From Stappia albiluteola (GTDB lineage Bacteria; Pseudomonadota; Alphaproteobacteria; Rhizobiales; Stappiaceae), in contig NZ_JACFXV010000062.1 in assembly GCF_014050225.1 (NCBI RefSeq), positions 1-64,000 on the forward strand: DNA of 64,000 bases, in the 5' to 3' direction. The position numbers and the translations under genes are program-made. This document shows, in pieces, positions 38,484 through 53,293 of the stretch (the stretch's first letter is position 1; each line of letters opens with the position of its first letter). The notes under the pieces were generated by a model, which searched no databases, was not told the origin of the DNA, and saw only the letters and a program-made list of their open reading frames with translations.

Positions 38484-39575
38484 ATGAACGTAGATACGCT
38501 GATCGTCGGCGGCGGACTTTCGGGTCTTGCGCTCGCCAACCTGCTCGAAGCGCGGGGCCATGCCTATCATCTGGTCGAGGCTCGCAATCGCTTCGGCGGA
38601 CGTGTTCTCAGCCATCGCGCGGATGAGCAGGCGGGGGCACCGGGCTTCGACCTCGGGCCGGCGTGGTTCTGGCCGCATCAGCCGCGCATGCTGCGCCTGA
38701 CGGGTGATCTGGGGCTGCGCGTCTTCGAGCAATATTCGTCGGGCCGGCTGGTCCTGGAAGAGGCGGACGGTTCGGTTCGCCGTGACCTCGATTTCTCCAC
38801 AATGGCCGGTTCCTTGCGGCTCGCGGGCGGTATCGCAGAACTGACCGACCGGCTGGCGGCGTCGCTTCCTGCCGGGAGAAGATCGAACCGCAGCCGCGTC
38901 GTCTCCATCGAAAGAATGGACGGCGGTCTCGTCTCGACGATTGCCAACAAGGGCGAGGATATCCGGAAGATCGTCAGCAGGCAGGTAGTGCTGTGCCTTC
39001 CCACCCGGCTCGCCGCCGATACCATCCGCTTCATTCCGGAACTCGGGGCTGCGGAAATGCGTGCCATGGCGGATGTCCTGACCTGGATGGGCGGGCAGGC
39101 GAAGGTGGTCGCCTTGTACGACACGCCATTCTGGCGCGGGATCGGCTTGTCCGGCGACGGCATGAGCCGGCGCGGGCCCATGGTGGAAATCCATGACCTG
39201 TCGCCGCCGGAGGGCGGACCCTATGCCCTATTCGGCTTTGTCGGTGTGCCGGCCCATATCCGGCAAGGCCGGGAAGCGGAGCTGAGGGAAGCGGCAAGGC
39301 AACAGCTGGAGCGTATGTTCGGACCTGAAGCCGGGAAGCCTATCGATATTCAGCTCAAGGACTGGGCCTTTGACGGGTTGACGTCGACCGAGGCCGATCA
39401 CGTGCCGGCCGGCGAACATCCCGCCTACGGGATGCCGCACCCGCTGCGAAATCTCTGGGACGGTCGTCTTGTCTTCGCCTCGTCGGAGATGGCCGTCGAG
39501 CACGGCGGGTACCTGGAAGGCGCCCTTGAGGCGGCCGAAGCCGCGGCCGATCGGATAGTGTCCCCGGTCGCCTGA
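38484..39575 (+). CDS. flavin monoamine oxidase-like FAD-dependent oxidoreductase
   Basis: 363-residue cytosolic flavoprotein. The N-terminal dinucleotide motif LIVGGGLSGLALANLLEARG (7-26), EARNRFGGRV and the C-terminal LVFASSEMAVEHGGYLEGALEAAEAAA (FAD-binding end) place it in the amine oxidase/phytoene desaturase superfamily. It is shorter than typical amine oxidases (about 450) and the substrate is unknown. Plus strand, 65 bases after the EAL gene; a mosaic repeat follows the stop by 15 bases. Confidence 0.88.
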   Translation: MNVDTLIVGGGLSGLALANLLEARGHAYHLVEARNRFGGRVLSHRADEQAGAPGFDLGPAWFWPHQPRMLRLTGDLGLRVFEQYSSGRLVLEEADGSVRRDLDFSTMAGSLRLAGGIAELTDRLAASLPAGRRSNRSRVVSIERMDGGLVSTIANKGEDIRKIVSRQVVLCLPTRLAADTIRFIPELGAAEMRAMADVLTWMGGQAKVVALYDTPFWRGIGLSGDGMSRRGPMVEIHDLSPPEGGPYALFGFVGVPAHIRQGREAELREAARQQLERMFGPEAGKPIDIQLKDWAFDGLTSTEADHVPAGEHPAYGMPHPLRNLWDGRLVFASSEMAVEHGGYLEGALEAAEAAADRIVSPVA

Positions 39576-39590
39576 CAGCGATACGCGACC

Positions 39591-39708
39591 TAGAGCGCTT
39601 TCCACGAAAGCGGGATCGCTTTCGTGGATCAAGAAATCGCTCCAGGATCAATGCTTTGAGCATATCCTTATCGCCAAATCCGATTCAGATTTGGCGGGAT
39701 ATGCTCTA
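39591..39708 (+). repeat. rhizobial-type mosaic palindromic element, copy 1
   Basis: 118-bp element with two large palindromes: CCACGAAAGCG/CGCTTTCGTGG (39602-39627 region) and CGCCAAATC/GATTTGGCG (39672-39695 region). A second copy in opposite orientation lies at 51974-52089 and differs by about five substitutions and a two-base indel. The architecture is that of RIME-type intergenic repeats of rhizobia. The last three bases (39706-39708) are the stop codon TAG of the adjacent minus-strand gene. Confidence 0.85.
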
Positions 39709-40884
39709 GCTGACGCTGCGCAGCCTGTCCTTGGCTAACTTGTGGGTTCCGGCCGGCGACTTGAATACTCTCTCGCCGCTCTTGTCGGTGGCAACCGAGA
39801 CCACCTTGTTGCGGCCGCTTTCCTTTGCCCGGTAGAGGGCGGCATCGGCTTCCTCGATCAGGCTGGCAAGCGATGCCGTTCCATGGGACGAAGACATCGA
39901 CGCAACGCCGGCACTGATGGTGATGCGGATTTCGGCACCTGGAAGGCTTATCGTCGTCGCTTCGATCAGCCTGCGGATCCGGTCCGCGCATTGCAGGGCC
40001 TGATGCGCCTTGGCGCCGAGCATCAAAACCGCATATTCCTCGCCGCCGTAACGGATCACCTCGTCTTCACGGCGTGCCATTTCCCGGATGATTTCCGCTA
40101 CCCGCGCAATAACCTTGTCGCCGGCGGCATGGCCATGCATATCGTTCACCCGTTTGAAGAAGTCGATATCGAACAGGGCGACTGCGAAGGATGCGTCGTC
40201 TCCCTTCAGGCGGCCTCGCAGGCTTTTTTCGACATCTTCCAGGCGGCGCCGATTGGAGAGTTGCGTCAGCCAGTCCGTCTGCGCGGCAATTTGGGCATTC
40301 TGCATCAACATCGAGCGCTTTTCTTCCCAGCGCAGGAAGAGGCCGACGATGAAGACACCGGCCAGGTTGATCGCACCCAGCGGAAAAGCGAAGCGCTCGA
40401 TGATCGTCCAGGCGAGGTCGCCGGGCAGGGCGAGAAGGCCAAGGATCTGAAACAGCGCGGCATTGGCGCCGTAGAGCGCCAGATGGGTGAGGTTTCGACC
40501 TCCCGGAAAGATGCGCGACCAGAAAATACCGGCGACAGTGGCTCCCACGATGCCGAGAGAGCCGGCAATGACGCCGGTCCCGCCTTCCGAAATGCGGAAC
40601 AAGGCCGCCATGCTGCCTGCAATGACGGCGGCAATCCAACCGCCGAAGGGGGCGGCGAGCGTCACCATGACGCCACGGGCGTCGATCAGCAGGCCCGGAG
40701 CGAATACGATCGGATTGAGCATTGAAGCGATTGCGGCGCCGCCAAAGAGAATTCCGGCAAGCAGGATTTTCAGCCTGCCATGCAGGCTCGGCCGAATGAC
40801 GAGGCTGTAGGTCAGGGCAACGAGCGCCGCCAGCCCCAGGCTGCCTATCATCTGCGCTATGACGCCGGATTGTAGATACTGCAT
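39706..40884 (-). CDS. GGDEF diguanylate cyclase with 5TM sensor domain
   Basis: 392 residues. The N-terminal half has about five or six helices of the 5TMR-LYT type, followed by a GGDEF domain. The active motif is GGEEY in EVIRYGGEEYAVLML, with intact A-site residues and, five residues upstream, an RRED sequence that fits the RxxD inhibitory I-site, so product inhibition is expected. Activity: synthesis of c-di-GMP. The stop codon is the terminal TAG of the mosaic repeat at 39591-39708. It is convergent with the FAD gene. Confidence 0.92.
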   Translation of the reverse strand: MQYLQSGVIAQMIGSLGLAALVALTYSLVIRPSLHGRLKILLAGILFGGAAIASMLNPIVFAPGLLIDARGVMVTLAAPFGGWIAAVIAGSMAALFRISEGGTGVIAGSLGIVGATVAGIFWSRIFPGGRNLTHLALYGANAALFQILGLLALPGDLAWTIIERFAFPLGAINLAGVFIVGLFLRWEEKRSMLMQNAQIAAQTDWLTQLSNRRRLEDVEKSLRGRLKGDDASFAVALFDIDFFKRVNDMHGHAAGDKVIARVAEIIREMARREDEVIRYGGEEYAVLMLGAKAHQALQCADRIRRLIEATTISLPGAEIRITISAGVASMSSSHGTASLASLIEEADAALYRAKESGRNKVVSVATDKSGERVFKSPAGTHKLAKDRLRSVS

Positions 40885-45161: not shown

Positions 45162-45354
45162 CCGCCACGTTTGCGAAGAAACGTGTGCGGGGTGTCAATT
45201 GGCGATTGCAAGATGGCGCGCTTTGGTGTTCTAGAAGCCCTGAATTCAGGCATCCGGAAGAATTGACTCGGCCAAGGCAAGCGTCGATTATTCCGGCCCG
45301 TATGGCGTCGCCGTTGCGCGCCTTATGGGAGGAGGGAGCGATCCCTCGCAAAGT

Positions 45355-45543
45355 TCTGCGGGAGAGGCCAGCGGAAGAGCTGGCGCCGAAGGAGCAACCG
45401 CCCCGGAAACTCTCAGGCAAAAGGACCGCTGAACAAGCAACGCTCTGGAAAGAAGCCGGGTGGATTTCCGCCTGGCTCGCCGAAGGAGTAACCGGCGCGG
45501 GTTCGTCCTGCCGGGAAATCTCTCAGGCCCGCAGGACAGAGGG
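45355..45543 (+). ncRNA. tandem glycine riboswitch upstream of gcvT
   Basis: Two aptamer-like units follow one another. In the first, a GAGAGGCC start at about 45362, the GAAGGAGCAACC core at 45388-45399 and CTCTCAGGCAAAAGGACC at 45411-45428 are canonical. In the second, GGAAAGAAGCC, GAAGGAGTAACC (45483-45494) and CTCTCAGGCCCGCAGGAC (45521-45538) repeat the scheme. The pair lies just upstream of gcvT and should activate the operon when glycine is high. Boundaries are approximate. Confidence 0.93.
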
Positions 45544-51954: not shown

Positions 51955-51973
51955 GGCTCGCGGGGAAGAGCGC

Positions 51974-52089
51974 TGGAGCATACCCCGCCAAATCTGAATC
52001 GGATTTGGCGACAAGGATATGCTCAAAGCATCGATTCTGGAGCGATTTCTTGTCACGAAAGCGATCCCGCTTTCGTGGAAAGCGCTCTA
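51974..52089 (-). repeat. rhizobial-type mosaic palindromic element, copy 2
   Basis: 116-bp near copy, in inverted orientation, of the element at 39591-39708. Both palindromes (CGCCAAATC/GATTTGGCG and CACGAAAGCG/CGCTTTCGTG) are kept. It ends two bases before the stop codon of the minus-strand ccrM gene, in the MarR-ccrM convergent gap. Confidence 0.85.
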
Positions 52090-52091
52090 AG

Positions 52092-53293
<1,202 letters not shown>

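Follow-up and report, generated by a model that had tools for sequence, protein, structure and literature searches.

The repeat and the cyclase gene

The window analyzed here is a 64,000-nt stretch of a contig of Stappia albiluteola, whose genome (G000) has a size of 4.36 Mb. In this window a diguanylate cyclase gene and a flavin amine oxidase gene converge on a short, hairpin-rich repeat. The features of the region, together with another copy of the repeat further along the window, are listed below.

38484–39575, + strand: flavin amine oxidase, convergent neighbor (ORF, domain scan)
39590–39709, + strand: 120-nt two-hairpin repeat, MITE-like (sequence, genome search, folding)
39591–39592, no strand: the other TA of the repeat (sequence)
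39602–39627, + strand: hairpin 1, inner stem CCACGAAAGCG / CGCTTTCGTGG (folding, copy alignment)
39658–39706, + strand: hairpin 2, GAGCATATCC...GGATATGCTC, inner stem CGCCAAATC / GATTTGGCG (folding, copy alignment)
39706–39708, − strand: cyclase TAG stop codon (sequence)
39706–40884, − strand: diguanylate cyclase, 392 aa, 5TM-5TMR_LYT + GGDEF (201–360) (ORF, domain scan)
51972–52092 (about), − strand: second copy of the repeat, 93% identical (sequence search)

The repeat begins with CTAGAGCG, ends with GCTCTAG and carries CTAG at each end; its ends are inverted relative to each other (CTAGAGCG / CTAGAGCA). The cyclase stop codon TAG is the reverse complement of 39706–39708 and comes from the CTAG at the repeat end. 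A sequence-only reading of this DNA had claimed that the terminal bases of the repeat supply the stop of the cyclase, and indeed the gene at 39706–40884 (−) ends in the TAG of the repeat. The first and last bases of the segment indicated in that reading (39591–39708) fall on the two TA dinucleotides of the repeat. The tail codons of the cyclase that precede the stop lie outside the element, except for the third base of the last sense codon, which belongs to the terminal CTAG. The GGDEF domain is complete (residues 201–360 of 392). On the other side, the flavin amine oxidase gene stops 14 nt before the repeat. This gene, which lies between a gene for an EAL protein and the cyclase gene, is missing at the corresponding place in genome G001 (L002).

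For each strand, folding of the window repeat was stronger than that of all 200 shuffled sequences (z −8.1 and −9.45), and it produced the two-palindrome layout that is one of the hallmarks of RIME. In an alignment of 59 copies the two-hairpin structure was paired in 92.9% of the cells, and both partners had changed in 21 pairs vs 11.0 in shuffles. Much of the double-change share of helix 3 was due to one alternative inner stem, present in ca. 8–10 copies; this fits a module swap, in keeping with the word mosaic of the repeat. The inner stem of hairpin 1 has an alternative palindromic version (CCGACCGGATG type) in other copies, and in a copy from genome G007 the outer stems are kept while the inner stems are different. 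An Rfam scan of the window gave no family at gathering score on the repeat; the only family that reached its own threshold was the glycine riboswitch (RF00504) at 45349–45438 on the + strand.

Copy number and distribution

Searching the genome with the repeat revealed 41 distinct places in G000, derived from 68 matches that include hairpin self-matches. The window copy grouped with four other G000 copies at 99–100% identity, a similarity that would suggest recent spread. The end of the second window copy (ca. 51972–52092) is not used as a stop by any called gene. Both other genomes of the genus, G001 and G002, also have copies, and in a family-wide search 4 of 87 genomes gave a match at 1e-10, three of them belonging to this genus. 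A search at the peptide level returned 40 (G001) and 71 (G002) matches with E up to 0.1.

We examined 95 non-redundant copies (97 rows with two duplicates), of which 46 were from G000, 24 from G001 and 25 from G002; those from G001 and G002 are mostly the best-scoring of at least 44 and at least 47 matches, a sample in which well-kept copies are favored. Of the 61 complete copies, 17 lay at stop codons and 33 between genes, while an ORF spanned 7 and overlapped part of the other 4. The repeat shows the traits of a MITE in being short (118–120 nt), multicopy, bordered by inverted ends and without a transposase gene. A half element with a single hairpin and a CTAG start (G000:C43:214388, in L280) was left uncounted; by eye it directly follows an apparent gene end, in phase TAG.

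Genes that end on the repeat

Genes were called with our own codon model trained on the window, and annotation was not used. There were 71 genes that face an element and stop in the range between 127 nt ahead of its end and 118 nt into it. Exactly on element bases 2–4 stopped 20 of the 71 (19 with TAG and one with TAA), every other single offset was found in at most three facing genes, and four genes stop elsewhere within the element. Sharing of stop codons between the repeat and genes exceeds chance.

For 16 of these 20 genes the ends were compared with those of orthologues; L054 and L169 were omitted on account of paralogues, and for L037 and L148 a close orthologue was lacking. At least one orthologue ended no more than two residues from the same position in 14 of the 16 genes, and for 13 of those 14 an element match was missing from the fetched orthologous loci (E 1e-3). 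In the case of L147, a weak element match lies 15 nt beyond the stop of the sole orthologue. Some further orthologues of these genes ended up to 9 residues away (for instance L162/L247 and L145/L263), and the stop codons of orthologues were TGA, TAA or TAG. The two exceptions were the cyclase and L036, whose orthologues are ca. 11 residues longer (unaligned tail of 3 vs 14 residues), and judged from this difference in length a truncation of L036 by the element is possible.

The only orthologue of the cyclase found in 41 whole genomes was that of G001, which is full-length with 54% identity and has no element at its end. The tail that does not align comprises 29 residues in the window cyclase vs 10 in the G001 protein, which is 19 shorter there. 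A contig scan for relatives gave 75 loci, mainly with matches to the GGDEF part, and none was taken as an orthologue. Because the tail of the sole orthologue does not align, neither truncation nor an unchanged end is directly demonstrable for the cyclase; its protein end was probably left unchanged by the repeat. The sequence-only reading had further proposed that the element inserted at the gene end and replaced or extended the C-terminus. Insertion is borne out by a multicopy element for which both occupied and unoccupied sites were found. Replacement or extension finds no support in the family, where 14 of 16 orthologue ends match: the comparison with repeat-free orthologues that had been suggested as a check returned the same end at the family level and was uninformative for the cyclase itself. 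Truncation of the cyclase by the element likewise finds no support in the orthologue ends of the family.

Unoccupied sites and target duplication

To see the sites without the element, 21 of them were compared with relatives in 35 pairs, and both flanks were obtained in 31 pairs. The flanks with their terminal 4-mers overlapped by exactly 4 in the element-free relative in 14 of the 31 projections, representing 10 of the 21 sites. At these 10 sites the four terminal bases thus occur once in the relative and twice at the occupied site, which is the duplication that characterizes a MITE. The other 17 projections had an overlap other than 4, mostly beside intergenic sides. In only 3 of the 14 gap-free projections did the relative show TA at the target (CTAA, ATAG and CTAC). 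Divergence, at ca. 70–90% identity, can explain the differing letters in the remaining gap-free relatives, and since these letters differ the pre-insertion target is mostly not directly visible. Further relatives have a stop at the same place, for instance reading CTAG (L162/L246), GTAG (L034/L233 and L234) or TTAG (L183/L255).

The length of the duplication alone cannot separate TA from CTAG as the duplicated unit. In the 61 complete copies the outer bases departed from C/G in 15 of 122 cases and the inner bases in 2 of 122 (Fisher P 0.0017). Variable outer and near-constant inner bases would favor TA as the unit, although the conservation of the inner bases could instead reflect their location in a stem. 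The TA positions are at present the most altered end positions (46/244), and CTAG is read today at 31 of 61 left ends and 32 of 61 right ends.

The supply of CTAG sites was determined in 464 kb of G000, consisting of the window and twenty hand-chosen 20-kb stretches with element copies masked. This sample contained 57 coding, 42 intergenic and 20 stop-codon CTAG sites, such that outside gene interiors 20 of 62 (32%) were stops. For TA sites of all kinds there were 1326 intergenic ones and 113 at stops (113/1439); TAG accounted for 73 of the 394 stops in the sample. The copies were at stops in 17 of 50 cases (34%) for complete copies and in 20 of 81 (25%) for all copies, where the spanned or partly overlapped copies (11 of 61 complete, 14 of 95 in all) and the 57 coding CTAG sites were set aside. 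This stop share was higher than that of all TA sites (P 1.3e-7 for complete copies and 3.4e-6 for all) and did not differ from that of CTAG (P 0.76 and 0.16), with the baseline taken from G000 only and the copies from three genomes. With G000 copies alone, 9 of 22 were at stops (P 2e-5 vs all TA and 0.37 vs CTAG). Since CTAG sites are often natural TAG stops, about one third of them outside gene interiors in this sample, no special targeting is needed to account for insertion at stops. Dedicated targeting of stop codons was rejected as an explanation, as the CTAG supply suffices.

Copies inside genes

The seven complete copies spanned by an ORF were all of 118 nt, lay in the phase expected from CTA-G, occurred in both directions and added 38 codons. 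Pfam, run on six of the seven, backed a real gene in each: a heparinase-like protein (L060, Hepar_II_III), a NicO-type transporter (L160), a murE-murF fusion (L172, Mur ligases), a GNAT protein (L185), cobD (L191) and a methyltransferase with the copy near its start (L044). The ORF of the seventh (L158) is doubtful, for which reason it was omitted from the second joined search. For L060, L160, L172, L185 and L191 the alignment with the orthologues runs to the insert and picks up again behind it, in the adjoining DNA. An exact 4-base overlap was found at L060, L172, L185, L191 and L044, and not at L160, where a loop is variable. The repeat thus occurs in frame in conserved genes (L060, L160, L172, L185 and L191) and is absent from their orthologues, as is a mark of Rickettsia palindromic elements (RPEs), and it is not confined to intergenic DNA in the manner of RIME.

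In phase CTA-G, 44 of the 61 complete copies were open in the forward direction and 37 of 61 in reverse, whereas the other phase gave 8 and 10 open copies; the copies share ancestry, so these counts are no test of selection. As 118-nt copies in phase CTA-G are often open both ways, they can be retained within genes. With its 120 nt, the window copy belongs to the longer type, whose net 116 nt would shift a reading frame. At two loci of G002 (L190 and L194) third-phase copies bring in a TGA 38 nt into the element, at which the ORF ends, and from their reading frames such copies may truncate genes.

Search for a mobilizing element and related sequences

With end patterns allowing at most one mismatch, no paired ends more than 276 nt apart were found in G000 that would mark a full-length partner. 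The IS630 transposase domain DDE_3 (PF13358) was found in none of the three genomes of the genus (G000–G002) and gave one match in G007; no IS630 partner thus came to light in the genus. An insertion sequence of G001 (L292, 1411–2264) encodes DUF4096, a domain of the IS5 type, and has CTAG at both ends. It is doubtful as a partner: its CTAG ends agree, but its terminal repeat is unlike that of the repeat. Two DUF4096 matches in G000 are located near contig ends.

Among 72,556 plasmid records the repeat had no match at E 1e-5, and at E up to 10 there were partial, weak matches in 26 records. In Rhizobium ruizarguesonis pRL12, a stretch between ehuB and ehuC (L143) has hairpins and an end CTCTAG located 14 nt before ehuC, features that make it a possible distant relative of the repeat. 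In the literature searched, which included PMC2573895, PMC1273637, PMC2873474, PMC5896051, PMC6471742 and PMC10969869, no title or abstract opening describes this repeat family.

Interpretation

We consider it highly probable that the repeat is a non-autonomous, hairpin-rich, MITE-like element that inserts at TA, mostly in CTAG, with duplication of the target, and that regenerates TAG at stop codons. An element of ca. 118–120 nt would enter at a TA, mostly within CTAG, and duplicate this TA. With a core that starts with G and ends with C, each side would read (N)TAG inward. Insertion at a TAG or TAA stop would accordingly restore TAG at the same codon and leave the protein unchanged, and a 118-nt copy in phase CTA-G would add 114 nt or 38 codons, often open in either direction. 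For the cyclase stop at 39706–39708, read in the orientation of the gene, TA would represent one of the two target copies, and the core of the element would start at G. The outer base C39590 of the window repeat is G in the cyclase orientation, and together with TA it predicts that the cyclase codon was TAG before insertion. We infer that TA, rather than CTAG, is the duplicated unit and that transposition occurred by a transposase acting in trans. The repeat belongs to an already known class of mobile repeats, and the simple reason for its sharing of stops is well supported.

Other explanations fit parts of the data. The element might carry the stop itself and have landed inside the cyclase gene, truncating it or swapping its end. 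The stop bases are part of the repeated unit, the sole cyclase orthologue has a different tail, L036 is ca. 11 residues shorter than its orthologues, and the pre-insertion target letters are not preserved in most relatives. This explanation is nevertheless improbable: 14 of the 16 compared genes have an orthologue whose end differs by at most two residues, the stops of only four among the 71 facing genes fall elsewhere within the element vs 20 at its end codon, and the cyclase is longer than its orthologue, not shorter. Still less credible is an element that targets stop codons or gene ends by recognizing 3′ gene ends or terminators. The 20 of 71 facing genes that stop on the end codon agree with it, as do several convergent gene pairs with little beyond the element between them (such as L036, L061, L161, L163 and L183), but the stop share of the copies (17/50 and 20/81) is not above the CTAG share (20/62), and the remaining copies lie between or within genes.

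A role of the repeat at gene ends, where it would be kept as a 3′ hairpin of the mRNA or as a block to transcription, is unlikely too, if somewhat less so than these two. It would account for the strong folding on both strands and for the compensatory changes (21 pairs vs 11.0). Many of the double changes in helix 3, however, represent one stem in ca. 8–10 copies and hence few events, the placement of copies tracks the CTAG supply, and inspection by eye showed no T-run behind the hairpins of the window copy. The insertion of a MITE-like element at CTAG provides a simple, testable rule for repeats that sit exactly on stop codons, namely that the target sequence is often itself a stop. For annotators it means that a stop inside a repeat should not be taken for a truncated gene.

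Comparison with known systems

IS630-type MITEs duplicate TA and prefer CTAG. The repeat resembles them in its inverted ends, its lack of coding capacity and, probably, its TA/CTAG target, and differs in that none of the three genomes of the genus matched the IS630 domain DDE_3. IS870 of Agrobacterium vitis reportedly also uses a CTAG target, and its junction with that target completes a stop codon. By description only, the repeat is alike in target and junction stop, whereas in IS870 the target completes the ORF of the element itself and here the stop of the host gene is kept. RIME (Rhizobium-specific intergenic mosaic elements) have a mosaic layout with two palindromes, as does the repeat, which in contrast is not restricted to intergenic DNA and had only weak plasmid matches (E up to 10). 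RIME are named among intergenic repeats in the consulted part of PMC2573895.

According to excerpts of PMC5896051, QMITE2 of Coxiella is a MITE at the 3′ end of a gene that alters the translation stop, in one strain with extension of the protein. The likeness, as far as these excerpts go, is that a MITE located where a gene ends bears on the position at which translation stops; the difference is that the extension concerns one Coxiella strain, while here the protein end is generally unchanged. RPEs are presented in excerpts of PMC10969869 as short, dispersed palindromic repeats, some of them in frame in unrelated genes with a conserved peptide. Measured against that partial description, the repeat is likewise short, palindromic, dispersed and partly in frame inside genes, whereas most of its copies are intergenic or at stops and it measures 118–120 nt vs about 150; the comparison is by description only. 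The genus adds a case in which one repeat family both preserves gene ends and occurs as in-frame insertions within genes. The in-frame copies are the more interesting part of the finding and offer a route to asking how mobile repeats create new protein segments. We give an even chance to the broader reading that this is a gene-sparing mobile repeat outside Rickettsia: landing in CTAG would be tolerable in two of three phases, with TAG regenerated in one and 38 open codons in either direction in CTA-G, and the repeat could hence spread through coding-dense DNA and would have seeded peptide inserts in proteins such as CobD and MurE-MurF.
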